Assembly (NCBI GenBank): GCA_030765065.1
Contig: CM060975.1
Span: 168,798,993 to 168,862,992 of the forward strand
Source: Deroplatys truncata
Taxonomy: Eukaryota > Arthropoda > Insecta > Mantodea > Mantidae
DNA: 64,000 nucleotides
Direction: 5' to 3'
Every line of letters begins with the position of its first letter. Positions within the stretch are counted from its first letter, which is position 1. Under the pieces are notes generated by a model. That model was not told the DNA's origin, ran no database searches, and saw only the letters and a list, made by a program, of their open reading frames with translations. Of this stretch, positions 5,045-40,199 are shown piece after piece. The position numbers and the translations under genes are program-made.

Positions 5045-5067
5045 CAGCATCACCATCGCCCACCAGC

Positions 5068-17236: not shown

Positions 17237-17242
17237 CCTATC
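17237..17242. repeat. Left 6-bp target-site duplication
   Basis: CCTATC immediately precedes the element's first base, AGTAGGG. It is repeated exactly at 38024-38029 after the element's last base. A 6-bp duplication is characteristic of Polinton/Maverick integrases. Confidence 0.9.
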
Positions 17243-17550
17243 AGTAGGGTATAAAGGACAGACCTGGGCCACTTTTTTGCGTTTATATGGGAAAGGATAG
17301 GGAAAACGGGGGTATATGCGGAGGTTCACGGAGGAAAATGCGTTTATATGGCGAAGATAGGGACTACGAGGATCGATGCTAGGCTAGATAGAGGTTGAAG
17401 GAATGAGGATGTGCTTTATATGAGAGATTCGTGGAATACGAGGAGAAGTGTTGGACTAGATAGAGGTTGAGATATGGAATATGCATTTATATGGGAAAGA
17501 TAGGGAAAACGTGAACAGAGGCTAGGATAGACAGATGCTGAAGATTTATC

Positions 17551-18663
17551 ACTAAATCGGTTTATTTTTTTAGTATTAATGTTTGTATTGTCCATAATGT
17601 TTTTAATTATTAGTCCAAATTTGATTAGAATTTTAATATGAACATATTTACAGGAGAAGGCGGCGCCGTGGCCGAGCGGTTAGACCGCTCGCCTCCCATC
17701 TAGGCGGCCCGGGTTCAATCCCAGGGACCTGCATGTGGGATTTGTGGTGGACGAAGCGGCGTCTGGGCGGGTTTTCTCCGGGTTCTCCGGTTTCCCCCGC
17801 CATTCATTCCACCAACTGCTCCATCATCACCTTTCCTTTCATCCATTTCACCAACATTTCGTTTCATCTACTTCCTTCATCCCATACCAGGCATCGGGCT
17901 GATCACCCATCCTGGATGCTCTGTCTGATCCATGAGTGTCTGCTCCTCGACGGGCCTCTGACCCCAGGCACCTGCTTGTAAGTCCTGGGGGGTGTAAGTC
18001 CTACATAAGAGGAGGGTAAACAGATAATGAATGAATGAATGAATTTACAGGAGAGATAGGGGATACGTGGAGAGGTACTAGACTATTCAGGGTTTGAAGG
18101 GTAGAGTATGACTTTTTATATGAAGAGACGAGGAAAACGAGGGTATATGCTAGGTTGAGAGAACCTTCAAGGAGGAAACAATGCGTTTATATGGGAGAGA
18201 TAGGGAAAACGAGGAGAGTTCTGAGGTAAGGCAGGGACTGAAGGAGGGAGAGATATGCTTTATACGACAGAGATAGGGCATGCGAGGGGAGGTGCTAGTG
18301 CAGACACTAAATCGGTTTATTTTTTTAGTATTAATGTTTGTATTGTCCATAATGTTTTTAATTATTAGTCCAAATTTGATTAGAATTTTAATATGAACAT
18401 ATTTACAGGAGAGATAGGGGATACGTGGAGAGGTACTAGACTATTCAGGGTTTGAAGGGTAGAGTATGACTTTTTATATGAAGAGACGAGGAAAACGAGG
18501 GTATATGCTAGGTTGAGAGAACCTTCAAGGAGGAAACAATGCGTTTATATGGGAGAGATAGGGAAAACGAGGAGAGTTCTGAGGTAAGGCAGGGACTGAA
18601 GGAGGGAGAGATATGCTTTATACGACAGAGATAGGGCATGCGAGGGGAGGTGCTAGTGCAGAC
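17551..18663. repeat. Left-arm-only tandem duplication
   Basis: The segment beginning ACTAAATCGG and ending GTGCTAGTGCAGAC occurs at 17551-18305 and again at 18306-18663. The right arm has it once (about 37360-37717). The first copy is longer by 397 bases because it contains a SINE with its target duplication. Both events are absent from the right arm. Confidence 0.85.
17658..18042 (+). mobile_element. tRNA-derived SINE inserted in the left arm
   Basis: The head is tRNA-like: A box GTGGCCGAGCGG, an anticodon-arm-like stretch, and B box GGTTCAATCCC near 17713. The body contains GGTTTTCTCCGGGTTCTCCG and CATACCAGGCATCGGGC, and the element ends in a GAAT simple tail. It is flanked by a 12-base duplication, ATTTACAGGAGA (17646-17657 and 18043-18054). 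The adjacent duplicated copy lacks the insert and shows the empty site. Confidence 0.9.
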
Positions 18664-19529
18664 AGAGGTTAAGGAGTATGGTATACGTTTATATGAGGAA
18701 TATATGGAAAACGTGAACAGAGGCTAGGATAGACAGGTGCTGAAGCAGGGGGAATATGAACATATTTACAGGAGAGATAGGGGATACGTGGAGAGGTACT
18801 AGACTATTCAGGGTTTGAAGGGTAGAGTATGACTTTTTATATGAAGAGACGAGGAAAACGAGGGTATATGCGACAGTTCAAGGAGGAAAATGCGTTTATA
18901 GGGGAGAGATAGGGAATACGAGGGCTGATGCTAGGCTAGTCAGATGCTAAAGGAGGGAGGGATACGCTTTATACGAGAGAGATAGGGAATACAAGGAAAG
19001 ATGTTATACTAAACAGGACTTGAAGGGTAGAATATGGTGTTTTATATGAGCGAGATAGTGAACCGAGGAGAGGTATTAGGCTAGGAGTTTTGAATGATAG
19101 AGTAGGCGTTTATATGCGAGAGATAGGGAATACGAGGGTCGATGCTAGGCTAGACAGGGTTGAAGTAGGGAATGCGTCTTATATGAGAGAGGTAGGGGAA
19201 TATGAGGAGAGGTCCTAGTCTAGACGTGTCGAGGAGCAGAGTATACGTTTATAGGGGAGAAATATGGAAAACGGTAGAGATACAAGGATAAGCAGGGGTT
19301 GAAGGAGGAGGAATGTAGGTTTATACGGTAATATAGGAGTAATTCGATTATAAAACTTTTATCGTCCAACGTTACAACACTTTTATATACTTTTTCTAAA
19401 CCTTACAAACTTTTTATATGTTAAACATTAGCGCGCGAGGCGGCGAGGGACAAACTGAATATCGGTTTACAGTGAAGTATACGTCCTAACCTATGCTCAC
19501 CTTGTATGTTCTACATCTTCTCATTGTCT

Positions 19530-19735
19530 ATTCATTCCTAACAGACGTAACCAACAAACGTAACCACGTAACAAGACGTAACATAACGGTACGACAAGAC
19601 GTCATACTAAGCAACATAAGCACGTAACCACGCAACATCACGTGACATCTCGTAACCAGAAACGTTACACGACGTAACAACACGTAGCAACTATGTAACC
19701 AAGTAACAAAACGTAAGAACAACACGTAACCAATT
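19530..19735 (-). repeat. GTTACG-rich cluster, left arm
   Basis: On the minus strand, GTTACG or near variants (TTACGT, GTAACG) recur about every 10-20 bases through 200 bases. The array lies between the PolB 3' end and the subterminal repeats. The mirror copy is at 36287-36490. The open frame through it is a by-product of the repeat. Confidence 0.7.
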
Positions 19736-19975
19736 CATTGCTAAGGCGATCTAAACTAATTCATCCTTCATAACTTAGACAATAAGTACGAGAACCTAGC
19801 CTAGATTAACCCGGCCAATCCTAAACGTTCCTCTCATCATCCTTTCTAGTCAGGCATCGACTAACCTAATCTGGCTAACCAAAGATAACCTCAACTTTCT
19901 TTTAGGGAAATTGCAATGTTTTATTCAGGTTTTATTATTCGAGAGTTTTAATTGAAAAGTTTACGCCAACATACC

Positions 19976-19981
19976 TTTATT
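19976..19981 (-). terminator. Candidate poly(A) signal of left PolB
   Basis: AATAAA on the minus strand lies about 200 bases past the PolB stop codon and is the mirror of 36040-36045. It is the first canonical hexamer seen downstream of the gene; cleavage there is inferred. Confidence 0.4.
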
Positions 19982-20183
19982 TTAGTTCCTTGTAGATGTC
20001 TCTCCCCTTTTATCTAGGCTTGAGACTAGCACTAGGATTACTCCTAATGGCAGGGTTACCACCTTCCCTTCCATCTTCTTCTTTCTTCATCAGGCGTCAG
20101 CTATCTGCATATACAGCACACAGATAACCTTCTTTTAAGATTGTAGACTCACGAGAAACTCTTTATCTTTAACTTACATTCTT

Positions 20184-23100
20184 TTAAGCACTGTTTGTAA
20201 TGGCGTAATGTCCATATGCATATGTCGTTATCCCATCCTCAGCAATAATTCTTTTATCATCAAACGGAGTCAATGCAATTTTATTCACTTGCACTGTAGC
20301 AAGAGCATGCTTTCGTGATAGGATCAGATTCATAGGTGTTCTGATGATTTCACAGGTTTTAAGACAGTCTGTATAGCTGTCAAACGAAATATGGTGCTTA
20401 ATGGCGCTACGTTTTATACCTTTAATCTTTTTTATCATTGACCCTTGAATATCTAAGGCATACATCTTAGGACGTAGTCCAACAAAGCGTAGGATGATTT
20501 TGCTATTAGCCTCATCTTTAAATTTTCCCAATACCTTCTTGTTCTGGGTAGAGTAACATATATGGTTGACAGGGTAATCAGCTGTATCGAGATGCTCAAG
20601 AAAACGTAGCTTGTCCTGGTACACATCTTCAGTTGTAACACGATGAATGAACGAATCAGTGTCCATATACATAAGCTTCAGGTTTTCAGCTCCATAATAA
20701 GGCAACAAAACGTCGTAATGATAGTTATACATTAATGTGTTGGAGATGTCCAACACACTCATACCAATGTATATAGGCTTGTTGAATACAATCTGACGAG
20801 AGGCCATATGTACAGCAGCTAGATTATCAGCATATATCGTCCTGTCGATAAACGTAGGCTTGGCGATCAGCTTCTCTAGAGTTTTTTCATTGGTCACCAG
20901 TCGTATATCCATACGGTTACGCAGGTTCTCCATAGTTTTTCCAAACATAGCGTTGTTAAAGAGCTTGTAGAGATCCTTCTCGAAATCATTTGCAGCTTGT
21001 TGTCGTAACCTGTTGTTAAATTCCACATACGGTTTTAACCATCGAGACTGTCGGAATTGTAGCACACGATGGATTTTTGTTAACCGTAGCCCATGACTAA
21101 GAGCTTGCTTCAAAGCCATGTAATGTACTACATACTTCTTTCGAGGTCCAAGATGAGGTATCAGTTTCTTTGTAGATGATTCCAATGGTTTCATACACTC
21201 TGGCAGGAAAGGTAGATCGTTGTGTAGATCGTGAAGTTCTGCAGGATACTCGATGTCGACTTCTAATATGTAGCCGTAAGGATCATCTTCTTGTAGCGTT
21301 TCTAAGCTGATTTCTTCAGGCGACACCCACTGAAATCCACCATAAGGGAGAGCGTGACACATTGCCCACCCATATTGGTTATTAGCGTCGTCATATGTGA
21401 TAAATTGGGTTGGTCTCGACGGATCAAACTTCTCCATATATGTGTTATTAGCCTCTGCATACCGATGGGAAACTTGACATAAACCTCCTCTTATACCAGA
21501 TTCCACCATGAGTAATTGATCATAATCCTGTAACAGTTCCAGCTTAATTCCAGTGTACAGTAACATAGCGTCCCATGTAAGACCTGGAGAGGTAAAATAA
21601 TGTGCAGGATCAACTTTGTGTGTTTTGAGGGTTTGCTCTCTGAACGTCTCAAAGACATCAGCTAGGAGAAGTACATCCGAAGTTAAGTAGAGATCGCTGT
21701 ACTCTCCCAGGTTTCTCACATTAAACAGCTCCCATACATTTTTAGCATGATCGTAGTCAGCATCACTAATTTCTTCTTCATTTAATCTATTGTAGAAGGA
21801 GTCCTTAGGAGGTAAGCAGGTTTCGTTCAGGGCATCCCATGATGTAACAAAATCATATGGAAATACACCCTTACGGGTCATCAACTTCAATTTGTCTTCT
21901 CCAAAGTACTTTAGCGTTTCAGGATACGAGGTTAGATTTTTTACCAACTTATCCAAGCTTGTACTGAGGAATCGGAAGCTATCCACAAATCGAAGCTTTA
22001 TATCTCCTACATACTTGGTGAATGAGATATAGCTTTCTTCGGAGTTAGGAATTACCTCCACACGTTCACTTGTGCAACCCAGCTCCTTAACAATGAAATG
22101 AGAGTCATATCCGCTAAGGTTATGCATGAAGACTGGTACATATTTAGGTGTTTTACAGGCTAAATTACATTCATTATGAAGACTTCCACGATATTCACCG
22201 CTGATGTGATCATGGTCGCGTACTTTATAGTTCTCTTCTGTAAAGGGTTTTCCACACAAGTAGCATGCTGAAGAAGACTCAAAATCCAATTGCTCTTGAT
22301 CCGTAAGTTTCAGAGGCTTAGCAGATTTGTATATGTCCTCAATCATTTTTGCAAGAGATGTCAGGTACAGCATAAACTTCTGAGCAGCATCAGCACCACG
22401 ATACACATAGGGTTGCTTAGGAAGACCAGTTTCGAGATGTTCAACACAAGATGTAGGCTTCACGTAAACACAGAAGCTCATTGGTGTGTGCTCTTGATAA
22501 GGGATTGTATAGGAAGTTTCAGGATTGGGTATACACGTATGGCATGGAGTGAGAATACTCTCAAAATCAGCATAGATGACATAAGGTACTTTCAGCATCC
22601 TCTCAACATTTTTAAACCGTACAATTGCTTTCTCCTTTGTAGGCATAACTACCCTTGCAACACCATGCTGATTACAGATGGTTGCATGTTCTTGTAGTTT
22701 TTCCAGTCCACTTCGTCCATTTCGATTATCAAAATGTGTAAAGCAACGCTTGCAGGTATATATCACTCCATCATGCTTAGTTTTCTGGCGTCGAACGAGC
22801 TTCTCAAAATTCTTTATATACACGTAGTGATGTTTTCCACTACTGTCATTCAATAGTAGCAGGTCGCGATGTTCAGGTAGTTCAATATCAACAACCTTTA
22901 TCGGGTACACTTCATGCTTCTCATCCAACCCGAAAACGTTAATAGATATCTTGTTAAGCTTCTCAAATTTAGGTATTTGAGAAAGTGGAGTAGGGTAAGA
23001 AACACAGCTGAAGTCGTACTTATCTTGAAGTTGTTTGTATTTGCTGACGCGTTGTGGCTTGGTGCTCACGAATTTGGCCAATACAGAGTACATGAAACAT

Positions 23101-23837
23101 AGCTCATCAGTTAAGTTCTGGATGTTAATGCAGGCTTTTCTTGCTTCAACAGAGGGAGGTAGGGGTATGTAGCTACTTCCTCGCAACGGGTTGTACTTGT
23201 TAATACGAAGGCGTACCCCTTCCACAGTAAGCAAGGCCCAGCTGCTACCCTTAAGCTGAGACTCATCCATTTCAGTCACCAATTTCTTGAATTTCACTTC
23301 CAGCATAGAGTCCAGATCTGTTTCTAGGAAAACAGCTTGATTTCTGGTTTTAAATGTCTTGTCACAGGTTTCTCCGATACTGTTAACAAATCTACACTCA
23401 GCTAACAGATTAATTTTAACACTCTTATGAACGCTAAGCTCTTTATGCACAGCCTGGATTATACGTTGTTTTGCCTCTTGCAGATACATATTTAGGTCCT
23501 TAGCTGATTCGCATCGTATAAAATACGATTTCAATCGTCCTTCGAATGAAGTTTCGTATTCCTTCATATCACAGTCCTCCATTGTTGACAGTAACTGATG
23601 TTTAGTTGGCTCCAATCTTCTTTTCTTCTGAGGGCTGCTTATTTCACATATATCTTCGTGTCGCCGCCCCTTATAACCATCTTTGAAGGTTACATTACAA
23701 TGTTTACATTTGAAGAGCTTCTTGCAGCTCATCTCGTGTCTTCTCTTGTCATAACCTCGGAGGAACTTCTTCCCACATTTTCCGCATGCATATCCAGTAG
23801 CGCTTGGAATAATATCCTTATACGCTGAGTTATTCAT
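20184..23837 (-). CDS. polB: Protein-primed family-B DNA polymerase, left-arm copy
   Basis: This 1217-residue frame has the same translation as the right-arm copy at 32184-35837. It has two N-terminal Cys2-His-Cys-type fingers, a full 3'-5' exonuclease (YADFES, HNLSGYDSHF, YLTSDVLLLAD) and polymerase motifs YDDANNQYG, NNAMFGKTMEN, MYMDTDS and KMY. A zinc/HNH-like insertion lies between the first two exonuclease motifs. It is transcribed toward the left terminus, away from the centre. There is no stop, frameshift or visible loss of a catalytic residue, so the copy appears functional. It is about the size of Polinton PolBs (roughly 1,100-1,200 residues). The right copy's entry gives domain positions. 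A bidnavirus-type PolB is an alternative relative, since that family is thought to derive from Polintons. Confidence 0.93.
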   Translation of the reverse strand: MNNSAYKDIIPSATGYACGKCGKKFLRGYDKRRHEMSCKKLFKCKHCNVTFKDGYKGRRHEDICEISSPQKKRRLEPTKHQLLSTMEDCDMKEYETSFEGRLKSYFIRCESAKDLNMYLQEAKQRIIQAVHKELSVHKSVKINLLAECRFVNSIGETCDKTFKTRNQAVFLETDLDSMLEVKFKKLVTEMDESQLKGSSWALLTVEGVRLRINKYNPLRGSSYIPLPPSVEARKACINIQNLTDELCFMYSVLAKFVSTKPQRVSKYKQLQDKYDFSCVSYPTPLSQIPKFEKLNKISINVFGLDEKHEVYPIKVVDIELPEHRDLLLLNDSSGKHHYVYIKNFEKLVRRQKTKHDGVIYTCKRCFTHFDNRNGRSGLEKLQEHATICNQHGVARVVMPTKEKAIVRFKNVERMLKVPYVIYADFESILTPCHTCIPNPETSYTIPYQEHTPMSFCVYVKPTSCVEHLETGLPKQPYVYRGADAAQKFMLYLTSLAKMIEDIYKSAKPLKLTDQEQLDFESSSACYLCGKPFTEENYKVRDHDHISGEYRGSLHNECNLACKTPKYVPVFMHNLSGYDSHFIVKELGCTSERVEVIPNSEESYISFTKYVGDIKLRFVDSFRFLSTSLDKLVKNLTSYPETLKYFGEDKLKLMTRKGVFPYDFVTSWDALNETCLPPKDSFYNRLNEEEISDADYDHAKNVWELFNVRNLGEYSDLYLTSDVLLLADVFETFREQTLKTHKVDPAHYFTSPGLTWDAMLLYTGIKLELLQDYDQLLMVESGIRGGLCQVSHRYAEANNTYMEKFDPSRPTQFITYDDANNQYGWAMCHALPYGGFQWVSPEEISLETLQEDDPYGYILEVDIEYPAELHDLHNDLPFLPECMKPLESSTKKLIPHLGPRKKYVVHYMALKQALSHGLRLTKIHRVLQFRQSRWLKPYVEFNNRLRQQAANDFEKDLYKLFNNAMFGKTMENLRNRMDIRLVTNEKTLEKLIAKPTFIDRTIYADNLAAVHMASRQIVFNKPIYIGMSVLDISNTLMYNYHYDVLLPYYGAENLKLMYMDTDSFIHRVTTEDVYQDKLRFLEHLDTADYPVNHICYSTQNKKVLGKFKDEANSKIILRFVGLRPKMYALDIQGSMIKKIKGIKRSAIKHHISFDSYTDCLKTCEIIRTPMNLILSRKHALATVQVNKIALTPFDDKRIIAEDGITTYAYGHYAITNSA

Positions 23838-23987
23838 CTTTATTCTTGATGTAATAACGTATTAATCACTGATCAATGAAATGTACGCCTTGATACCACT
23901 TTAGAAAGCTGATTATTCTTGGAGAGAACACGATGTTAACACCTCAGAGATGATCAACAGAATGAATTTCAATACTCAAGTTCGCTC

Positions 23988-23995
23988 TATTTATA
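23988..23995 (-). promoter_or_regulatory. TATA box of left PolB
   Basis: TATAAATA on the minus strand, about 150 bases upstream of the start codon, mirrors 32026-32033. It fits a short 5' UTR of about 120 bases. Confidence 0.6.
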
Positions 23996-24277
23996 GAGAA
24001 AGCACGAACCTTTTTAATCAATTATATCCTGATTATTAATACTAAAAACGGTGATGAAGCGTGTAAGCTCTTATACATTTCAATTCGTGTTACACTGTTG
24101 TTCGAGCGTCTCCGTATAGCTTCGTATGTTTAGAGAGAAAGTGTAAAGTATTGTGAAGATGTTATGTATTGTTCGGCTATAATCGTACAGATTCGGAGAG
24201 CTTGACTGGTGAAGGTGATGAACGATCCGTCAACCGAGCAGGAGGCAAGCAGCCTCAGTCTAGAGACAGGATGTTTA

Positions 24278-24285
24278 TGACGTCA
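24278..24285. promoter_or_regulatory. CRE/ATF-like palindrome upstream of left PolB
   Basis: TGACGTCA lies between two copies of ATCCTGTCTCT (minus strand), about 290 bases upstream of the TATA box. The mirror site is 31736-31743. Confidence 0.4.
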
Positions 24286-24638
24286 CACCCAGAGACAGGA
24301 TGTCTGCCAGTATCAAACACGTTTAAACTCGTCTCGTAACTACCTGTATATGCTGTCACATCAACAAGAGAAGTATTCCCACACGCTCATTCAGTCAGAT
24401 GTTACATTCAAAGCCTACCACCACCCATTACACCGAAGCTAGCACAATCTCAAAAGCTTAAAAGGTCACGTAGAAGATTTTCCCCCTTACTTACTTAAAT
24501 GTGTGTATATACTACATTATTTCATGTTTTCATTCCCTTTTCAATTCTTCCTTTCCATCTTGTTCTAGAAAGACCATTACATTTCACTACAATCATGAGA
24601 AAAGCAATTTTTCCAGAGTTACAGAGATTCTAAGCTTC

Positions 24639-25071
24639 TAGAATCGAACTCGGTAATACTTTTAATAAATGGGTTTTAGTAATTTAGCTTCCCCGCATCA
24701 GCATCTACCATTTAATCTTTACTCGAACCTGATAGGATTCATAGGCTTGAAGATATATGAAATCACCCCTTCGGGATTCGATCTGAGTACTTTAAAGTAG
24801 TTATCGTCATAATAACGATATTTAGGAACTAGGTACTCTGTTTACGTTTACCTTGACATGTCTATCTAAATTAAATTACGAGTTATTAAATGTTTACAAG
24901 TAAATTTCATTAAATCGGTATTCGAACCCAGAACACCAGGAACAAAATAATTTATAATATTAGCTTGACATGTTAAACAAAGCTGTATGCAGTTACATCA
25001 TCGATCTAAGCGATATATTCTAGTGTACAGAGGAAAATTAAGGAAGTCATTAAAAAATCGGGATTCGAACT
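24639..25071 (-). repeat. B-box-like motif series, left arm
   Basis: Mirror image of 30951-31382, where four GTTCGAATCCC-like motifs occur about 140 bases apart. See the right-arm entry. Confidence 0.45.
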
Positions 25072-25329
25072 AGAGACAACTGATACAGTAAAAACAGACC
25101 TCATTAGTACTCATCATGCTTAAGCATGTTAACTTTCACCATATGACGTCACAGTCGGGGACAGTTTGACTATCGCAGCCATGTCAGGAAATGCATATTT
25201 TAGTCATCTCATATTTTAGAGTCATATACAGAAACCAGGCAAAACCATGAAAAATATGTCAGAGTGAACAACCATCGACAATCGAACGAGGGAAACCATC
25301 AGATTACTCTAGGAGCATAAAGTGCAACT

Positions 25330-25580
25330 GAAAGAAAATCGTGATAGCTGAGAAACCACTCCAGCATTCGCGTGCAGACCAGGGGAAACTATGAAAAAAT
25401 CAAAGGGCCGAGCGAGTGGCTGATAGAGTGTGCGACCAACAGGAAATCAAGCAAAAGGTCTCTAGAGGCAAAAAGATGCAATTGAAATGGAATCATGATA
25501 GCAAATGCCGCTACAGCATTAGGTAGCAGACCGGCGAAAATCATGAGAAACGTAAGGTCAGAGTAAACAATTGATTGAAA
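25330..25580 (-). mobile_element. Old SINE-like remnant in the left arm
   Basis: Blocks CCAGCATTCGCGTGCAGACC, AGGGGAAACTATGAAAAAA and GGGCCGAGCGAGTGG parallel the minus-strand SINE fragment at about 13130-13190 (CCAGCATTCGCTTTCCAACC, AGGGAATACTATGAAAAAA). An identical copy lies in the right arm (30441-30691), so the insertion predates formation or last homogenisation of the palindrome. Confidence 0.45.
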
Positions 25581-26218
25581 TCTAACCCCTGAACCCTAGA
25601 AATTCACGACAACTGAAAAACGAAACCCAGATGTAGAGGAAATTTTGTACACCCTTGACGAAAAAACCCCGTCCGCTGGGGAAGTAACCTTTAAGTATAC
25701 AATTGACGTCTGTCATACCGATAAGGGACGGTTTGAAAGGCTTCCTAATTGCTCTACGCAAGTCACCTGAGCAAACACAGGAAATTCCTAAACCAGACAA
25801 TTACAAGCCTGCTAAAACATTTTTTCCTACAATAAGTAATTTAAATTCTACATGAAGATTATTCCAAAAGTTTCATATCTCTTATTTCCTTCAATAAAAT
25901 ATCGAATATGACTCTAGCACCAGGGAAAAAAATTAAACGGAGGGAAGCGATATTTTCTTTTTACGCTGAAATTATAATTAAATGCATAGCATTCTTGCAT
26001 GAAAACACTGTCCATATAGATTATAGGAATGGACTCTGTTTAAAACATGTATTTTTTCACGCGTGGTGTATAGATTGTCTCAGTAAGCATTCGTGACTAT
26101 TACAATTATCGCCAAGTATTATTTTACAAAAAGATTGGCTTATTCTCTTAGTAAACATAGGACGAAATCGTTTTTTAAACAACTCTCCATTCGAGAGATA
26201 TTGTTTGATTATTCCAGC

Positions 26219-26219
<1 letters not shown>

Positions 26220-26251
<32 letters not shown>

Positions 26252-26258
26252 GAGAGAT
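26220..26258. repeat. (GA)n microsatellite, left arm
   Basis: Pure GA dinucleotides with one GGGA interruption. The mirror tract at 29763-29801 has the same length and the same interruption. Since microsatellites mutate fast, this supports very recent arm identity. Confidence 0.85.
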
Positions 26259-27724
26259 CGAGCCATATTTGTTTAAAAGCTTTTTTTTCATTCACAGGAA
26301 ATCTTCGAGAAAATTCGAGGAATTATTCAGTTGGACACCATTGCTAAAATAGTTTGTACACCCTTTGAAGAATGTTTACCTGACTGGCGGAGTCTCGGAA
26401 ATACCTCTCTCGACAGGCTGTCGCCCGCATGCCTTTGTGTGCCATTTATACATTAGGGAGACTATTGTGCTTTAAAATGGGATAGCTATGTTTTAAGCTT
26501 TCCACAACAAATTTTTTTCCCGATAATTAATATAATTCTACATGAAGAATATTAATGATTTAAGTTTTCAATTAAACGTATACTGTATAGATTCTGTACT
26601 TAAACATTCGATTGTATCTTAGTCATTATTTAAATACTCGATTACGAGAATTGCTAGCATATCAAAAATTGTAGAAGTTTTTCCACCCTTATTTAATTAA
26701 ATTCATGTATATACTCTATTATTTAGTGATTTTTTCAATAATTTCTCTCATGTCCATCATTCGTCAAAAAATCAGTGTACAATACGCATTTTTATACGTT
26801 TTAATGTTCGTTTATTTTTAAAACCGCTACATTTGCCCGTAATTACGAACAATTAGATTTCAGATTTACTCAGATGTGTAGCTTGTAGAATAGAAATGTT
26901 TTAATAAATGTATTCTATTTTTAGACGAAAAACAACGATCTGCTTCTGACTGTGTATAATTATAATCAAGACCGATTTGTATTTAGTATAAAGTTTGTTT
27001 ATTTTCATTTTTAAGACTTCCTTTGTTAAAGATATCTTGCAATCTATTTTTAAATTTCTTTTAAAACCAGAGCGAACATTATCAAATATAACGCCTGCCT
27101 TCACGTGTCGGGAAGCTAACATGGTCACAGTCATCTTTTAGTAGCTTGCCTTTCATGTCGGCCTCGGGCGGAGGCGAGCACCTGGCGGGGAGGAGAAGCC
27201 TTGCGAAAGGCGGCTGAGGGGTGGCACCTGGAGGGAGAAAGACCGGCATCACGAGTCGCTGAGAGTCCAGCCCTCAGTACGGTCCTGCATGCCGTAAGGT
27301 CCGGTCCTATTCGTAGCAGCATGCTATACCACCGCAGCTCGCGCCAGCGTCTTACGTAATCTAGTTTTTTACGCTCACTATACCATTTAAATATACATTC
27401 ATCTAAGAGATATAATATTCGTCAGGATGACAGATGTCCAAATATACATAACAAAGAAATTAGTTACTGATATAAATGTAATATCGTACATTCACCATTT
27501 TATTTTATTCGGGGGATGAAATTTGTATTCATGTCACGGTTTTCAATCCTAGTCCTCCAACCCTACTTGGAACGACAATCAATAACGAGCTACAATCCAA
27601 GGATATAATCGATAATAATACAAATATTTTGATAAAGAATATCAAATGTAGATCTCTATAAACGTATGTATTTCCCCTCACTTCCCCTCTTTCCCCCACC
27701 ACGCAGTAGAAATATAATGGCGAC

Positions 27725-28296: not shown

Positions 28297-29762
28297 GTCG
28301 CCATTATATTTCTACTGCGTGGTGGGGGAAAGAGGGGAAGTGAGGGGAAATACATACGTTTATAGAGATCTACATTTGATATTCTTTATCAAAATATTTG
28401 TATTATTATCGATTATATCCTTGGATTGTAGCTCGTTATTGATTGTCGTTCCAAGTAGGGTTGGAGGACTAGGATTGAAAACCGTGACATGAATACAAAT
28501 TTCATCCCCCGAATAAAATAAAATGGTGAATGTACGATATTACATTTATATCAGTAACTAATTTCTTTGTTATGTATATTTGGACATCTGTCATCCTGAC
28601 GAATATTATATCTCTTAGATGAATGTATATTTAAATGGTATAGTGAGCGTAAAAAACTAGATTACGTAAGACGCTGGCGCGAGCTGCGGTGGTATAGCAT
28701 GCTGCTACGAATAGGACCGGACCTTACGGCATGCAGGACCGTACTGAGGGCTGGACTCTCAGCGACTCGTGATGCCGGTCTTTCTCCCTCCAGGTGCCAC
28801 CCCTCAGCCGCCTTTCGCAAGGCTTCTCCTCCCCGCCAGGTGCTCGCCTCCGCCCGAGGCCGACATGAAAGGCAAGCTACTAAAAGATGACTGTGACCAT
28901 GTTAGCTTCCCGACACGTGAAGGCAGGCGTTATATTTGATAATGTTCGCTCTGGTTTTAAAGGAAATTTAAAAATAGATTGCAAGATATCTTTAACAAAG
29001 GAAGTCTTAAAAATGAAAATAAACAAACTTTATACTAAATACAAATCGGTCTTGATTATAATTATACACAGTCAGAAGCAGATCGTTGTTTTTCGTCTAA
29101 AAATAGAATACATTTATTAAAACATTTCTATTCTACAAGCTACACATCTGAGTAAATCTGAAATCTAATTGTTCGTAATTACGGGCAAATGTAGCGGTTT
29201 TAAAAATAAACGAACATTAAAACGTATAAAAATGCGTATTGTACACTGATTTTTTGACGAATGATGGACATGAGAGAAATTATTGAAAAAATCACTAAAT
29301 AATAGAGTATATACATGAATTTAATTAAATAAGGGTGGAAAAACTTCTACAATTTTTGATATGCTAGCAATTCTCGTAATCGAGTATTTAAATAATGACT
29401 AAGATACAATCGAATGTTTAAGTACAGAATCTATACAGTATACGTTTAATTGAAAACTTAAATCATTAATATTCTTCATGTAGAATTATATTAATTATCG
29501 GGAAAAAAATTTGTTGTGGAAAGCTTAAAACATAGCTATCCCATTTTAAAGCACAATAGTCTCCCTAATGTATAAATGGCACACAAAGGCATGCGGGCGA
29601 CAGCCTGTCGAGAGAGGTATTTCCGAGACTCCGCCAGTCAGGTAAACATTCTTCAAAGGGTGTACAAACTATTTTAGCAATGGTGTCCAACTGAATAATT
29701 CCTCGAATTTTCTCGAAGATTTCCTGTGAATGAAAAAAAAGCTTTTAAACAAATATGGCTCG

Positions 29763-29769
29763 ATCTCTC

Positions 29770-29801
<32 letters not shown>
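29763..29801. repeat. (CT)n microsatellite, right arm
   Basis: Mirror image of the GA tract at 26220-26258, with identical length and interruption. Confidence 0.85.
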
Positions 29802-29802
<1 letters not shown>

Positions 29803-30440
29803 GCTGGAATAATCAAACAATATCTCTCGAATGGAGAGTTGTTTAAAAAACGATTTCGTCCTATGTTTACTAAGAGAATAAGCCAATCTTTTTGTAAAAT
29901 AATACTTGGCGATAATTGTAATAGTCACGAATGCTTACTGAGACAATCTATACACCACGCGTGAAAAAATACATGTTTTAAACAGAGTCCATTCCTATAA
30001 TCTATATGGACAGTGTTTTCATGCAAGAATGCTATGCATTTAATTATAATTTCAGCGTAAAAAGAAAATATCGCTTCCCTCCGTTTAATTTTTTTCCCTG
30101 GTGCTAGAGTCATATTCGATATTTTATTGAAGGAAATAAGAGATATGAAACTTTTGGAATAATCTTCATGTAGAATTTAAATTACTTATTGTAGGAAAAA
30201 ATGTTTTAGCAGGCTTGTAATTGTCTGGTTTAGGAATTTCCTGTGTTTGCTCAGGTGACTTGCGTAGAGCAATTAGGAAGCCTTTCAAACCGTCCCTTAT
30301 CGGTATGACAGACGTCAATTGTATACTTAAAGGTTACTTCCCCAGCGGACGGGGTTTTTTCGTCAAGGGTGTACAAAATTTCCTCTACATCTGGGTTTCG
30401 TTTTTCAGTTGTCGTGAATTTCTAGGGTTCAGGGGTTAGA

Positions 30441-30691
30441 TTTCAATCAATTGTTTACTCTGACCTTACGTTTCTCATGATTTTCGCCGGTCTGCTACCT
30501 AATGCTGTAGCGGCATTTGCTATCATGATTCCATTTCAATTGCATCTTTTTGCCTCTAGAGACCTTTTGCTTGATTTCCTGTTGGTCGCACACTCTATCA
30601 GCCACTCGCTCGGCCCTTTGATTTTTTCATAGTTTCCCCTGGTCTGCACGCGAATGCTGGAGTGGTTTCTCAGCTATCACGATTTTCTTTC
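30441..30691 (+). mobile_element. Old SINE-like remnant in the right arm
   Basis: Exact mirror of 25330-25580. Blocks include CCACTCGCTCGGCCC, TTCCCCTGGTCTGCACGCGA and ATGCTGGAGTGG. Confidence 0.45.
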
Positions 30692-30950
30692 AGTTGCACT
30701 TTATGCTCCTAGAGTAATCTGATGGTTTCCCTCGTTCGATTGTCGATGGTTGTTCACTCTGACATATTTTTCATGGTTTTGCCTGGTTTCTGTATATGAC
30801 TCTAAAATATGAGATGACTAAAATATGCATTTCCTGACATGGCTGCGATAGTCAAACTGTCCCCGACTGTGACGTCATATGGTGAAAGTTAACATGCTTA
30901 AGCATGATGAGTACTAATGAGGTCTGTTTTTACTGTATCAGTTGTCTCTA

Positions 30951-31382
30951 GTTCGAATCCCGATTTTTTAATGACTTCCTTAATTTTCCTCTGTACACTA
31001 GAATATATCGCTTAGATCGATGATGTAACTGCATACAGCTTTGTTTAACATGTCAAGCTAATATTATAAATTATTTTGTTCCTGGTGTTCTGGGTTCGAA
31101 TACCGATTTAATGAAATTTACTTGTAAACATTTAATAACTCGTAATTTAATTTAGATAGACATGTCAAGGTAAACGTAAACAGAGTACCTAGTTCCTAAA
31201 TATCGTTATTATGACGATAACTACTTTAAAGTACTCAGATCGAATCCCGAAGGGGTGATTTCATATATCTTCAAGCCTATGAATCCTATCAGGTTCGAGT
31301 AAAGATTAAATGGTAGATGCTGATGCGGGGAAGCTAAATTACTAAAACCCATTTATTAAAAGTATTACCGAGTTCGATTCTA
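30951..31382 (+). repeat. Series of four tRNA B-box-like motifs at about 140-bp spacing
   Basis: GTTCGAATCCC (30951), GTTCGAATACC (31094), GATCGAATCCC (31238) and GTTCGATTCTA (31372) are spaced 143, 144 and 134 bases. At least two are preceded by CATGTCAAGSTAA-type sequence. No full tRNA cloverleaf could be drawn. They may be relics of a tandemly repeated tRNA-derived unit or of internal pol III promoters. Confidence 0.45.
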
Positions 31383-31735
31383 GAAGCTTAGAATCTCTGT
31401 AACTCTGGAAAAATTGCTTTTCTCATGATTGTAGTGAAATGTAATGGTCTTTCTAGAACAAGATGGAAAGGAAGAATTGAAAAGGGAATGAAAACATGAA
31501 ATAATGTAGTATATACACACATTTAAGTAAGTAAGGGGGAAAATCTTCTACGTGACCTTTTAAGCTTTTGAGATTGTGCTAGCTTCGGTGTAATGGGTGG
31601 TGGTAGGCTTTGAATGTAACATCTGACTGAATGAGCGTGTGGGAATACTTCTCTTGTTGATGTGACAGCATATACAGGTAGTTACGAGACGAGTTTAAAC
31701 GTGTTTGATACTGGCAGACATCCTGTCTCTGGGTG

Positions 31736-31743
31736 TGACGTCA
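31736..31743. promoter_or_regulatory. CRE/ATF-like palindrome upstream of right PolB
   Basis: TGACGTCA lies between two ATCCTGTCTCT repeats. Another TGACGTCA occurs at 30870-30877 in the same arm. Function inferred from motif only. Confidence 0.4.
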
Positions 31744-32025
31744 TAAACATCCTGTCTCTAGACTGAGGCTGCTTGCCTCCTGCTCGGTTGACGGATCGTT
31801 CATCACCTTCACCAGTCAAGCTCTCCGAATCTGTACGATTATAGCCGAACAATACATAACATCTTCACAATACTTTACACTTTCTCTCTAAACATACGAA
31901 GCTATACGGAGACGCTCGAACAACAGTGTAACACGAATTGAAATGTATAAGAGCTTACACGCTTCATCACCGTTTTTAGTATTAATAATCAGGATATAAT
32001 TGATTAAAAAGGTTCGTGCTTTCTC

Positions 32026-32033
32026 TATAAATA
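32026..32033 (+). promoter_or_regulatory. TATA box of right PolB
   Basis: TATAAATA lies 151 bases upstream of the ATG at 32184. The intervening sequence has no upstream long frame, fitting a simple pol II promoter with a short leader. Confidence 0.6.
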
Positions 32034-32183
32034 GAGCGAACTTGAGTATTGAAATTCATTCTGTTGATCATCTCTGAGGTGTTAACATCGTGTTCTCTCC
32101 AAGAATAATCAGCTTTCTAAAGTGGTATCAAGGCGTACATTTCATTGATCAGTGATTAATACGTTATTACATCAAGAATAAAG

Positions 32184-35100
32184 ATGAATAACTCAGCGTA
32201 TAAGGATATTATTCCAAGCGCTACTGGATATGCATGCGGAAAATGTGGGAAGAAGTTCCTCCGAGGTTATGACAAGAGAAGACACGAGATGAGCTGCAAG
32301 AAGCTCTTCAAATGTAAACATTGTAATGTAACCTTCAAAGATGGTTATAAGGGGCGGCGACACGAAGATATATGTGAAATAAGCAGCCCTCAGAAGAAAA
32401 GAAGATTGGAGCCAACTAAACATCAGTTACTGTCAACAATGGAGGACTGTGATATGAAGGAATACGAAACTTCATTCGAAGGACGATTGAAATCGTATTT
32501 TATACGATGCGAATCAGCTAAGGACCTAAATATGTATCTGCAAGAGGCAAAACAACGTATAATCCAGGCTGTGCATAAAGAGCTTAGCGTTCATAAGAGT
32601 GTTAAAATTAATCTGTTAGCTGAGTGTAGATTTGTTAACAGTATCGGAGAAACCTGTGACAAGACATTTAAAACCAGAAATCAAGCTGTTTTCCTAGAAA
32701 CAGATCTGGACTCTATGCTGGAAGTGAAATTCAAGAAATTGGTGACTGAAATGGATGAGTCTCAGCTTAAGGGTAGCAGCTGGGCCTTGCTTACTGTGGA
32801 AGGGGTACGCCTTCGTATTAACAAGTACAACCCGTTGCGAGGAAGTAGCTACATACCCCTACCTCCCTCTGTTGAAGCAAGAAAAGCCTGCATTAACATC
32901 CAGAACTTAACTGATGAGCTATGTTTCATGTACTCTGTATTGGCCAAATTCGTGAGCACCAAGCCACAACGCGTCAGCAAATACAAACAACTTCAAGATA
33001 AGTACGACTTCAGCTGTGTTTCTTACCCTACTCCACTTTCTCAAATACCTAAATTTGAGAAGCTTAACAAGATATCTATTAACGTTTTCGGGTTGGATGA
33101 GAAGCATGAAGTGTACCCGATAAAGGTTGTTGATATTGAACTACCTGAACATCGCGACCTGCTACTATTGAATGACAGTAGTGGAAAACATCACTACGTG
33201 TATATAAAGAATTTTGAGAAGCTCGTTCGACGCCAGAAAACTAAGCATGATGGAGTGATATATACCTGCAAGCGTTGCTTTACACATTTTGATAATCGAA
33301 ATGGACGAAGTGGACTGGAAAAACTACAAGAACATGCAACCATCTGTAATCAGCATGGTGTTGCAAGGGTAGTTATGCCTACAAAGGAGAAAGCAATTGT
33401 ACGGTTTAAAAATGTTGAGAGGATGCTGAAAGTACCTTATGTCATCTATGCTGATTTTGAGAGTATTCTCACTCCATGCCATACGTGTATACCCAATCCT
33501 GAAACTTCCTATACAATCCCTTATCAAGAGCACACACCAATGAGCTTCTGTGTTTACGTGAAGCCTACATCTTGTGTTGAACATCTCGAAACTGGTCTTC
33601 CTAAGCAACCCTATGTGTATCGTGGTGCTGATGCTGCTCAGAAGTTTATGCTGTACCTGACATCTCTTGCAAAAATGATTGAGGACATATACAAATCTGC
33701 TAAGCCTCTGAAACTTACGGATCAAGAGCAATTGGATTTTGAGTCTTCTTCAGCATGCTACTTGTGTGGAAAACCCTTTACAGAAGAGAACTATAAAGTA
33801 CGCGACCATGATCACATCAGCGGTGAATATCGTGGAAGTCTTCATAATGAATGTAATTTAGCCTGTAAAACACCTAAATATGTACCAGTCTTCATGCATA
33901 ACCTTAGCGGATATGACTCTCATTTCATTGTTAAGGAGCTGGGTTGCACAAGTGAACGTGTGGAGGTAATTCCTAACTCCGAAGAAAGCTATATCTCATT
34001 CACCAAGTATGTAGGAGATATAAAGCTTCGATTTGTGGATAGCTTCCGATTCCTCAGTACAAGCTTGGATAAGTTGGTAAAAAATCTAACCTCGTATCCT
34101 GAAACGCTAAAGTACTTTGGAGAAGACAAATTGAAGTTGATGACCCGTAAGGGTGTATTTCCATATGATTTTGTTACATCATGGGATGCCCTGAACGAAA
34201 CCTGCTTACCTCCTAAGGACTCCTTCTACAATAGATTAAATGAAGAAGAAATTAGTGATGCTGACTACGATCATGCTAAAAATGTATGGGAGCTGTTTAA
34301 TGTGAGAAACCTGGGAGAGTACAGCGATCTCTACTTAACTTCGGATGTACTTCTCCTAGCTGATGTCTTTGAGACGTTCAGAGAGCAAACCCTCAAAACA
34401 CACAAAGTTGATCCTGCACATTATTTTACCTCTCCAGGTCTTACATGGGACGCTATGTTACTGTACACTGGAATTAAGCTGGAACTGTTACAGGATTATG
34501 ATCAATTACTCATGGTGGAATCTGGTATAAGAGGAGGTTTATGTCAAGTTTCCCATCGGTATGCAGAGGCTAATAACACATATATGGAGAAGTTTGATCC
34601 GTCGAGACCAACCCAATTTATCACATATGACGACGCTAATAACCAATATGGGTGGGCAATGTGTCACGCTCTCCCTTATGGTGGATTTCAGTGGGTGTCG
34701 CCTGAAGAAATCAGCTTAGAAACGCTACAAGAAGATGATCCTTACGGCTACATATTAGAAGTCGACATCGAGTATCCTGCAGAACTTCACGATCTACACA
34801 ACGATCTACCTTTCCTGCCAGAGTGTATGAAACCATTGGAATCATCTACAAAGAAACTGATACCTCATCTTGGACCTCGAAAGAAGTATGTAGTACATTA
34901 CATGGCTTTGAAGCAAGCTCTTAGTCATGGGCTACGGTTAACAAAAATCCATCGTGTGCTACAATTCCGACAGTCTCGATGGTTAAAACCGTATGTGGAA
35001 TTTAACAACAGGTTACGACAACAAGCTGCAAATGATTTCGAGAAGGATCTCTACAAGCTCTTTAACAACGCTATGTTTGGAAAAACTATGGAGAACCTGC

Positions 35101-35837
35101 GTAACCGTATGGATATACGACTGGTGACCAATGAAAAAACTCTAGAGAAGCTGATCGCCAAGCCTACGTTTATCGACAGGACGATATATGCTGATAATCT
35201 AGCTGCTGTACATATGGCCTCTCGTCAGATTGTATTCAACAAGCCTATATACATTGGTATGAGTGTGTTGGACATCTCCAACACATTAATGTATAACTAT
35301 CATTACGACGTTTTGTTGCCTTATTATGGAGCTGAAAACCTGAAGCTTATGTATATGGACACTGATTCGTTCATTCATCGTGTTACAACTGAAGATGTGT
35401 ACCAGGACAAGCTACGTTTTCTTGAGCATCTCGATACAGCTGATTACCCTGTCAACCATATATGTTACTCTACCCAGAACAAGAAGGTATTGGGAAAATT
35501 TAAAGATGAGGCTAATAGCAAAATCATCCTACGCTTTGTTGGACTACGTCCTAAGATGTATGCCTTAGATATTCAAGGGTCAATGATAAAAAAGATTAAA
35601 GGTATAAAACGTAGCGCCATTAAGCACCATATTTCGTTTGACAGCTATACAGACTGTCTTAAAACCTGTGAAATCATCAGAACACCTATGAATCTGATCC
35701 TATCACGAAAGCATGCTCTTGCTACAGTGCAAGTGAATAAAATTGCATTGACTCCGTTTGATGATAAAAGAATTATTGCTGAGGATGGGATAACGACATA
35801 TGCATATGGACATTACGCCATTACAAACAGTGCTTAA
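32184..35837 (+). CDS. polB: Protein-primed family-B DNA polymerase (Polinton/Maverick type), right-arm copy
   Basis: The product is 1217 residues and would replicate a linear genome from a terminal protein primer. The N terminus has two Cys2-His-Cys fingers (C18/C21/H34/C38 and C44/C47/H60/C64), with another at about 362-388. Exonuclease motifs are YADFES (about 422-427), HNLSGYDSHF (572-581) and YLTSDVLLLAD (717-727). A zinc/HNH-like insertion, CYLC (525-528) with RDHDHISGEYRG and HNECN (540-558), lies between Exo I and II. Polymerase motifs are YDDANNQYG (815-823), NNAMFGKTMEN (961-971), MYMDTDS (1056-1062) and KMY (1124-1126). All catalytic acidic residues appear present. The ATG at 32184 is the first in frame, in an AAGATGA context. 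It is transcribed outward toward the right terminus. A separate terminal-protein gene was not found. Confidence 0.95.
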   Translation: MNNSAYKDIIPSATGYACGKCGKKFLRGYDKRRHEMSCKKLFKCKHCNVTFKDGYKGRRHEDICEISSPQKKRRLEPTKHQLLSTMEDCDMKEYETSFEGRLKSYFIRCESAKDLNMYLQEAKQRIIQAVHKELSVHKSVKINLLAECRFVNSIGETCDKTFKTRNQAVFLETDLDSMLEVKFKKLVTEMDESQLKGSSWALLTVEGVRLRINKYNPLRGSSYIPLPPSVEARKACINIQNLTDELCFMYSVLAKFVSTKPQRVSKYKQLQDKYDFSCVSYPTPLSQIPKFEKLNKISINVFGLDEKHEVYPIKVVDIELPEHRDLLLLNDSSGKHHYVYIKNFEKLVRRQKTKHDGVIYTCKRCFTHFDNRNGRSGLEKLQEHATICNQHGVARVVMPTKEKAIVRFKNVERMLKVPYVIYADFESILTPCHTCIPNPETSYTIPYQEHTPMSFCVYVKPTSCVEHLETGLPKQPYVYRGADAAQKFMLYLTSLAKMIEDIYKSAKPLKLTDQEQLDFESSSACYLCGKPFTEENYKVRDHDHISGEYRGSLHNECNLACKTPKYVPVFMHNLSGYDSHFIVKELGCTSERVEVIPNSEESYISFTKYVGDIKLRFVDSFRFLSTSLDKLVKNLTSYPETLKYFGEDKLKLMTRKGVFPYDFVTSWDALNETCLPPKDSFYNRLNEEEISDADYDHAKNVWELFNVRNLGEYSDLYLTSDVLLLADVFETFREQTLKTHKVDPAHYFTSPGLTWDAMLLYTGIKLELLQDYDQLLMVESGIRGGLCQVSHRYAEANNTYMEKFDPSRPTQFITYDDANNQYGWAMCHALPYGGFQWVSPEEISLETLQEDDPYGYILEVDIEYPAELHDLHNDLPFLPECMKPLESSTKKLIPHLGPRKKYVVHYMALKQALSHGLRLTKIHRVLQFRQSRWLKPYVEFNNRLRQQAANDFEKDLYKLFNNAMFGKTMENLRNRMDIRLVTNEKTLEKLIAKPTFIDRTIYADNLAAVHMASRQIVFNKPIYIGMSVLDISNTLMYNYHYDVLLPYYGAENLKLMYMDTDSFIHRVTTEDVYQDKLRFLEHLDTADYPVNHICYSTQNKKVLGKFKDEANSKIILRFVGLRPKMYALDIQGSMIKKIKGIKRSAIKHHISFDSYTDCLKTCEIIRTPMNLILSRKHALATVQVNKIALTPFDDKRIIAEDGITTYAYGHYAITNSA

Positions 35838-36039
35838 AAGAATGTAAGTTAAAGATAAAGAGTTTCTCGTGAGTCTACAATCTTAAAAGAAGGTTATCTG
35901 TGTGCTGTATATGCAGATAGCTGACGCCTGATGAAGAAAGAAGAAGATGGAAGGGAAGGTGGTAACCCTGCCATTAGGAGTAATCCTAGTGCTAGTCTCA
36001 AGCCTAGATAAAAGGGGAGAGACATCTACAAGGAACTAA

Positions 36040-36045
36040 AATAAA
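36040..36045 (+). terminator. Candidate poly(A) signal of right PolB
   Basis: AATAAA about 200 bases after the stop codon, mirrored at 19976-19981. Confidence 0.4.
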
Positions 36046-36286
36046 GGTATGTTGGCGTAAACTTTTCAATTAAAACTCTCGAATAATAAAACCTGAATAA
36101 AACATTGCAATTTCCCTAAAAGAAAGTTGAGGTTATCTTTGGTTAGCCAGATTAGGTTAGTCGATGCCTGACTAGAAAGGATGATGAGAGGAACGTTTAG
36201 GATTGGCCGGGTTAATCTAGGCTAGGTTCTCGTACTTATTGTCTAAGTTATGAAGGATGAATTAGTTTAGATCGCCTTAGCAATGA

Positions 36287-36490
36287 ATTGGTTACGTGTT
36301 GTTCTTACGTTTTGTTACTTGGTTACATAGTTGCTACGTGTTGTTACGTCGTGTAACGTTTCTGGTTACGAGATGTCACGTGATGTTGCGTGGTTACGTG
36401 CTTATGTTGCTTAGTATGACGTCTTGTCGTACCGTTATGTTACGTCTTGTTACGTGGTTACGTTTGTTGGTTACGTCTGTTAGGAATGAA
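36287..36490 (+). repeat. GTTACG-rich cluster, right arm
   Basis: About ten GTTACG-type hexamers in 200 bases, for example TTGTTACGTGGTTACGTTTG. Mirror of 19530-19735. Confidence 0.7.
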
Positions 36491-36689
36491 TAGACAATGA
36501 GAAGATGTAGAACATACAAGGTGAGCATAGGTTAGGACGTATACTTCACTGTAAACCGATATTCAGTTTGTCCCTCGCCGCCTCGCGCGCTAATGTTTAA
36601 CATATAAAAAGTTTGTAAGGTTTAGAAAAAGTATATAAAAGTGTTGTAACGTTGGACGATAAAAGTTTTATAATCGAATTACTCCTATA

Positions 36690-38005
36690 TTACCGTATAA
36701 ACCTACATTCCTCCTCCTTCAACCCCTGCTTATCCTTGTATCTCTACCGTTTTCCATATTTCTCCCCTATAAACGTATACTCTGCTCCTCGACACGTCTA
36801 GACTAGGACCTCTCCTCATATTCCCCTACCTCTCTCATATAAGACGCATTCCCTACTTCAACCCTGTCTAGCCTAGCATCGACCCTCGTATTCCCTATCT
36901 CTCGCATATAAACGCCTACTCTATCATTCAAAACTCCTAGCCTAATACCTCTCCTCGGTTCACTATCTCGCTCATATAAAACACCATATTCTACCCTTCA
37001 AGTCCTGTTTAGTATAACATCTTTCCTTGTATTCCCTATCTCTCTCGTATAAAGCGTATCCCTCCCTCCTTTAGCATCTGACTAGCCTAGCATCAGCCCT
37101 CGTATTCCCTATCTCTCCCCTATAAACGCATTTTCCTCCTTGAACTGTCGCATATACCCTCGTTTTCCTCGTCTCTTCATATAAAAAGTCATACTCTACC
37201 CTTCAAACCCTGAATAGTCTAGTACCTCTCCACGTATCCCCTATCTCTCCTGTAAATATGTTCATATTCCCCCTGCTTCAGCACCTGTCTATCCTAGCCT
37301 CTGTTCACGTTTTCCATATATTCCTCATATAAACGTATACCATACTCCTTAACCTCTGTCTGCACTAGCACCTCCCCTCGCATGCCCTATCTCTGTCGTA
37401 TAAAGCATATCTCTCCCTCCTTCAGTCCCTGCCTTACCTCAGAACTCTCCTCGTTTTCCCTATCTCTCCCATATAAACGCATTGTTTCCTCCTTGAAGGT
37501 TCTCTCAACCTAGCATATACCCTCGTTTTCCTCGTCTCTTCATATAAAAAGTCATACTCTACCCTTCAAACCCTGAATAGTCTAGTACCTCTCCACGTAT
37601 CCCCTATCTCTCCTGTAAATATGTTCATATTAAAATTCTAATCAAATTTGGACTAATAATTAAAAACATTATGGACAATACAAACATTAATACTAAAAAA
37701 ATAAACCGATTTAGTGATAAATCTTCAGCATCTGTCTATCCTAGCCTCTGTTCACGTTTTCCCTATCTTTCCCATATAAATGCATATTCCATATCTCAAC
37801 CTCTATCTAGTCCAACACTTCTCCTCGTATTCCACGAATCTCTCATATAAAGCACATCCTCATTCCTTCAACCTCTATCTAGCCTAGCATCGATCCTCGT
37901 AGTCCCTATCTTCGCCATATAAACGCATTTTCCTCCGTGAACCTCCGCATATACCCCCGTTTTCCCTATCCTTTCCCATATAAACGCAAAAAAGTGGCCC
38001 AGGTC
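36690..38005 (+). repeat. Subterminal degenerate tandem repeats, right arm
   Basis: About 15 units of 57-75 bases with CCTATCTCTCCCATATAAAC, CCTCGTTTTC and CTAGCCTAGCA blocks. This is the inverse of the left array, with a single copy of the 107-base AT-rich insert (about 37611-37717). The array runs to within about 20 bases of the terminus. Confidence 0.85.
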
Positions 38006-38023
38006 TGTCCTTTATACCCTACT

Positions 38024-38029
38024 CCTATC
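38024..38029. repeat. Right 6-bp target-site duplication
   Basis: CCTATC follows the element's last base (...CCCTACT) and matches 17237-17242 exactly. The predicted empty site reads GAGTA-CCTATC-GCCAGAG. Confidence 0.9.
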
Positions 38030-39610: not shown

Positions 39611-39619
39611 GACATTTCT

Positions 39620-40190: not shown

Positions 40191-40199
40191 GCATACAAA

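Follow-up and report, generated by a model that had tools for sequence, protein, structure and literature searches.

Among protein-primed replicons, palindromic genomes are known in the form of defective by-products, and symmetric hairpin derivatives of linear replicons are found for adenovirus and for yeast pGKL1, where they are self-complementary copies of one genome end. The snap-back genomes of adeno-associated virus (AAV) are also self-complementary copies of one genome end; the parts of PMC8235507 at hand present them as subgenomic by-products with an ascribed regulatory role, and those of PMC11575299 report panhandle-mediated repair of an incomplete inverted terminal repeat in the same virus. 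The element analysed here occupies positions 17243-38023 of a 64,000-nucleotide stretch of the mantis Deroplatys truncata (contig CM060975.1; the whole stretch is called the window), and it is likewise a mirror copy of one genome end, with one PolB gene in each half. The AAV, adenovirus and pGKL1 forms are by-products of a complete genome, whereas the palindrome belongs to a diversifying, chromosomal family whose polymerase is under selection. No complete parent with these termini was found among 40 sampled terminus pairs.

Polintons, or Mavericks, share with the element a Polinton-type PolB, a 6-bp duplication and AGT...ACT ends, and the Polinton-like assignment made in the first-pass annotation of the window agrees with these three features. 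In the available portions of PMC8097293, vertebrate Mavericks are flanked by perfect 6-bp duplications and end in (AG)3 or (AGT)2, the latter being near but not equal to the AGTAGG start of the element; the intact ones have seven or eight conserved genes, and their terminal inverted repeats (TIRs) measure 46-1,447 bp. In contrast, the TIR of the window element is the entire arm, about 9.7 kb, the two PolB genes are the only genes found and no integrase or capsid gene was detected. The 6-bp duplication and the AG...CT terminal repeats are thus present, but of an rve integrase gene only a 17-aa stretch was recovered, and for this reason the element is not filed as an autonomous Polinton. Adintoviruses, in the sections of PMC11071296 at hand, are defined by PolB and hexon, have an rve integrase and carry an OTU-like domain at the N-terminus of PolB. 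Over 1,140 aa the PolB of the palindrome shares 46% identity with the Ladona dragonfly adintovirus PolB; in the palindrome, however, neither hexon (sought only with a distant protein of the viral contig L001) nor integrase was found. No published palindromic PolB-only Polinton was recognised in the open-licence literature, though this does not prove that no such description has been published.

The element and its copies

The stretch 17243-38023 is a genuine palindromic element. It is flanked directly on both sides by CCTATC (17237-17242 and 38024-38029), a perfect 6-bp target site duplication, and its outer 415 nt, which start AGTAGGGTATAAAGG, are the same at both ends. The left arm (17243-27724, plus strand) and the right arm (28297-38023, minus strand) showed 1 mismatch in 9,420 aligned sites when 18305-27724 was compared with 28297-37716. 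Each arm carries a replication terminus, subterminal repeats and an intact, outward-facing PolB open reading frame (ORF) of 3,654 nt and 1,217 codons, located at 20184-23837 on the minus strand, toward the left end, and at 32184-35837 on the plus strand. The two ORFs are identical at the DNA level. The arms are joined at a short asymmetric centre of 572 bp (27725-28296), where the mirror symmetry stops sharply. The first-pass annotation had given these coordinates, the identical termini, the duplication, the inverted arms and the outward 1217-codon PolB of each arm, all of which were reproduced, and had proposed a distinct element type, palindromic and with no gene but PolB; PolB is indeed the sole gene found, and the distinct type is supported. 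Its description of the arms was right as to near-identical mirror copies, but the left arm alone holds a 358-bp duplication and an insertion resembling a short interspersed element (SINE), and the symmetry ends at the centre.

The host assembly (4.29 Gb in 818 contigs) was searched with the terminus of the element. Scoring of 40 of 2,709 candidates gave 40 full-length matches forming 20 facing pairs, the window included. The exact 28-nt terminus matched 164 times (80 forward and 84 reverse) and the reversed control pattern not once. Among the matches listed from both terminus searches 51 pairs were compiled, with a median span of 19,669 bp and with 38 of the 51 spanning 19.0-20.9 kb; 40 of these pairs, counting the window, were sampled. 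In 19 other copies the two ends, the PolB region of each arm and the midpoint were read. Every one of them had a perfect 6-bp duplication, all different and one lying inside a TG run, and PolB was present in both arms of all 19, so that the search for other copies with the same layout and different duplications, which had been proposed as a check, succeeded throughout. The outer 100 nt of the two ends were identical in 15 of these copies, differed at one site in 2 and were out of register in 2 (41 and 20 mismatches, ungapped). Some of the host flanks share repeats among themselves. A further 20 pairs were read over 2.5 kb at one side and over 400 nt at the opposite side, and 19 of them had PolB on both. 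In total, 39 of the 40 sampled pairs had PolB at both ends.

The element is therefore a member of a long-lived, diversified multi-copy family. The idea of a single derivative gave way to this result in view of the 164 exact termini, the pairs with PolB at both ends and the purifying selection on PolB, and the parental full-length Polinton that had been expected to share the termini did not appear in the sample. The palindromic form here seems to have become a stable mode of existence, inherited with the chromosome and equipped with a polymerase under selection; the element works both as a Polinton whose terminal repeat is extreme and as a snap-back genome turned heritable. As a separate observation, one terminus pair at host C2:236074883-236094785 had a second reverse terminus 272 bp beyond it, perhaps a tandem end.

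Arms, centre and polymerase across copies

The divergence between the two arms of a copy and that between copies were compared over about 3.88 kb around PolB. The arms of one copy differed at 0-5 sites (mean 0.047%), whereas the difference between copies averaged 1.4% and reached 3.8% from the window. The arms evolve in concert: in 19 of 20 copies the two arms were each other's sisters, and only those of C10_237 grouped with the arms of one other copy. For 35 of the 36 within-copy differences one state was absent from all the other 38 arms, and these look like changes that followed insertion. At sites with two alleles, each in at least two copies, both arms agreed in every copy at 151 of 152, and 138 copy-private changes sit in both arms of their copy. 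In a second set, 17 of 19 copies had at least 99% identity between their right and left PolB stretches over 400 nt, though the stretches themselves were 88-99.8% identical to the window. The near-identity of arms within copies and the divergence between copies directly imply that every copy inserted with identical or almost identical arms. This is parallel to the two long terminal repeats (LTRs) of a retrotransposon, here seen on the gene-containing halves of a DNA element. The arm near-identity at insertion records the mode of replication and can date each insertion, as with LTRs, and the copies offer a fossil record in which the copying of one end into the other during protein-primed replication can be tested.

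Selection on PolB was analysed by the ratio of nonsynonymous (dN) to synonymous (dS) divergence. The ratio was 0.14-0.34 at dS 0.03-0.14 among six PolB lineages of the first set, about 0.10 at dS of about 0.5 for seven deeper copies (C3_22, C3_116, C5_200, C6_73, C8_37, C10_142 and C12_18), and 0.10-0.54 for six pairs within or between subfamilies. The PolB of C6_53, which has 9 in-frame stops, gave 0.24 at dS 0.62. Near-identical copies gave 0.37 (C2_217, dS 0.010) and 1.34 (C10_121, dS 0.002); higher or uninformative ratios are expected here because neutral changes after insertion are included. Uninterrupted PolB, taken as at least 1,200 codons to the stop, was present in at least 24 of 40 arms (10 copies with both arms uninterrupted, 4 with one and 6 with neither), a lower bound with one piece cut by its edge. 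The substitution ratios thus indicate that PolB is under purifying selection between subfamilies.

The closest full-length relatives of PolB, among the best 120 of 4,113 matches, are 51-56% identical (unplaced contigs, Halyomorpha and Rhodnius), and a partial protein in the same set, listed under the bee Hylaeus, covers 56% of the query at 67% identity. A search of viral contigs with the single PolB sequence gave no relative. The alignment-based search of these contigs gave six loci, of which L001 alone matches most of the PolB length, at 38% identity, and the other five match only in a short stretch around the endonuclease motif. L001 carries an rve integrase and an A32-type ATPase, and, like the window element, it has tandem subterminal repeats at the PolB end. 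In Pfam only the Endonuclease_7 insertion of PolB passed the cut-off, PF03175 gave no match to the window PolB, and the PDB sequence search with PolB returned nothing. Residues D424, E426, D817, D1059 and D1061 are invariant across 19 aligned PolBs, and these are taken to be the exonuclease and polymerase motif residues. The N-terminus, in which D244, C247 and H337 are invariant in the alignments, is read as a putative OTU-like domain; its model had a predicted local distance difference test (pLDDT) score of 86.5, and Foldseek with this model gave no match at E ≤ 0.001, the 50 listed matches having query TM-scores of 0.16-0.19. The similarities support a PolB of the Polinton/adintovirus kind, and from this family membership protein priming by the enzyme would follow.

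The centre of the element is an imperfect inverted repeat common to most copies read. Its halves are 77% identical (240 aligned columns, 92 gap columns), with an inverted-repeat score of 83 against a maximum of 35 across 200 dinucleotide shuffles. Elsewhere in the window 6 of 838 scanned places, in two regions, scored at least as high, and such imperfect inverted repeats are therefore not rare here. The window centre was present at 96-99% in 11 of the 19 other copies, and a second form, with a best piece of 90-94%, in 6. A copy with a 12% different PolB keeps the same asymmetric centre (78% over 691 bp), and in another copy the centre is 79% identical to that of the window over 750 bp. Across loci L091-L109 two centre types and several terminus variants were found, out of step with the PolB tree. 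Over 605-750 nt of the inner arm, 18 of 19 copies matched the window at 98.1-99.9% identity, though PolB dS reaches about 0.1 among them. Apart from the element, 13501-14172 and 39401-40572 of the window hold further imperfect inverted repeats with scores equal to or above that of its centre.

Replication mode and alternative explanations

The explanation considered probable is that of an all-TIR Polinton lineage which is replicated via a fold-back form, with one arm templating the other, and is integrated by an integrase acting in trans. The terminal inverted repeat would have grown to include nearly the entire element. PolB would copy the linear DNA from protein-capped ends, and the displaced strand would fold back at the central imperfect inverted repeat into a hairpin of roughly 10 kb, so that one arm could template or correct the other in each cycle. 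Insertion of the double-stranded palindrome would then fall to an integrase made by canonical Polintons that the genome also contains. The first palindrome would most likely have arisen by strand switching at the central inverted repeat; the snap-back origin proposed in the first-pass annotation may apply, the data themselves showing near-identical arms within each copy and concerted evolution. A stricter statement stands at about even chances: the lineage has turned wholly into terminal repeat, a half and its mirror are remade from one arm in each cycle, the fold-back taking place at a quasi-palindromic centre that is maintained, and the element is a replicase-carrying parasite on the canonical Polinton integrase. 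It would be a case of one kind of Polinton probably parasitising another.

Several observations weigh against a fold-back lineage of this kind. The identity within copies could also stem from chromosomal gene conversion. One of the 36 within-copy differences breaks the private-change pattern, one of the 152 shared variable sites is discordant between the arms, and left-right identity over 400 nt was only 97.0% in C8_37 and 98.5% in C6_53. The 10.9-kb C10_34 lacked PolB at the left place read, where inner-arm sequence was found instead. Two of the 19 other copies, C2_131 and C16_215, were without the shared centre at the midpoint. The midpoint of C16_215 falls within an arm; C2_131 (L099, host C2:131479635-131482035) is a 15.6-kb copy with a different, diverged centre and inner mirrored sequences about 80% alike, and its PolB arms are nonetheless identical across 3,883 aligned nt. 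Moreover, the type of centre does not track the PolB clade (C9_67 compared with C10_237); lineages therefore recombine and no single tree fits the element. Taken together with the near-identical inner arm at a PolB dS of about 0.1, this means that lineages exchange parts or that the inner arm is constrained.

Among the alternatives, it is unlikely that a non-palindromic parent Polinton is the real lineage and that its inverted repeat is a hotspot at which palindromes arise anew by snap-back, as dead ends. Such recurrent formation would equally account for the shared centre, for arms that are identical at insertion and for the purifying selection on PolB. However, none of the 40 sampled pairs, about half of the approximately 80 pairs, was a non-palindromic parent (39 had PolB at both ends and 1 was rearranged), and the host Polinton PolB that was read is just 36% identical over 212 aa.

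It is also improbable that a fixed palindrome transposes and its arms are kept alike after insertion by chromosomal gene conversion, as in sex-chromosome palindromes. Long inverted repeats are known substrates of conversion, and the 138 copy-private changes found in both arms are what it would produce. On the other hand, nearly all the within-copy differences (35 of 36) occur in a single arm only, neither the SINE-like insertion nor the 358-bp duplication of the window copy has spread to its other arm, and the left-right divergence over 400 nt is 3.0% in C8_37 and 1.5% in the decayed C6_53. In-place conversion is disfavoured because of these unconverted one-arm insertions and the two copies with diverged arms.

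An unrecognised integrase or other gene, perhaps spliced, would make the element autonomous if it lay in the 3.9 kb of each arm that separate PolB from the centre. The conservation of the inner arm noted above and the fragment of an integrase gene within it speak for such a gene. It is nevertheless very unlikely: the inner arm between PolB and the centre has no frame above 96 aa, no Pfam family passed the cut-off in the 20 scanned among 31 pieces of at least 45 aa, and neither tblastn nor profile searches matched an integrase. For the latter, 120 integrases and their profile were compared with the element without a match, the PolB profile working as positive control, and the best weak integrase matches in the window fall outside the element, near 62 kb. 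The host integrase detected no integrase gene in the element, the single 17-aa stretch being its only match. Of the remaining L001 genes (integrase, A32-type ATPase, putative hexon and penton) no trace was found, L001 being a distant query; the protease was not searched for. The L001 ATPase had no match in the host genome either, a negative that carries no weight. Palindromic reads do occur in long-read data, but an assembly artefact is excluded in practice because independent copies have different 6-bp duplications (matching at 20 of 20 copies read), and the arms carry private differences.

The host genome could supply the integrase that the fold-back lineage would use. It gave 129 scored integrase matches of 26-33% identity; an open frame of 309 aa was counted by eye in 88, and none of the 60 checked falls inside a listed terminus pair. 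At L152 (host C9:118550900-118553399) a 309-aa rve integrase, identified by Pfam, stands tail-to-tail with a PolB, the same order as in L001 and in canonical Polintons; its C-terminal stretch is read as a chromodomain. This host Polinton resembles the palindrome in having PolB, in sharing the genome and in a 49-bp stretch of integrase gene held in common, and differs from it in the integrase itself and in the distant PolB mentioned above. Integrase-bearing Polintons thus coexist with the palindromes, and they would serve as helpers.

The 49 bp of the L152 integrase gene, 47 of them identical, lie at 26927-26975 (plus strand) in the left arm, with the mirror copy at 29046-29094 (minus strand) in the right arm. 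None of 100 shuffled-integrase controls gave a match as good. The fragment was found in both arms of 16 of the 19 other copies and once in two more, within the stretch read; in C2_131 it was not found in the stretch read. In two further copies the 700 nt read at the centre stop short of its position. Judged from the match, the mirrored fragment shows that palindromes and canonical Polintons have exchanged sequence. It could be templated filler DNA or the source of an integrase-matching hairpin RNA. If the helper relation is true and the palindrome is transcribed through, a hairpin RNA matching the integrase of the helper would result.

Other features of the window

The subterminal repeats are degenerate tandem arrays, located at 17282-19273 (plus strand) on the left, where the units are about 72-73 bp long, and at 36814-37927 (minus strand) on the right. 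The 358-bp tandem duplication of the left arm extends over 17550-18662 (plus strand), and its first copy is split by the 385-bp SINE-like insertion (17658-18042, plus strand). This insertion has a tRNA-like head, judged by eye, an (ATGA)n tail and a 12-bp duplication (17646-17657 and 18043-18054); ARAGORN detected no tRNA in 17658-18042, and the Rfam search found nothing. Outside the element, 4631-7050 of the window contains ORFs of a Gypsy-type retrotransposon (zinc knuckle, protease and reverse transcriptase), one of which occupies 5068-7050.

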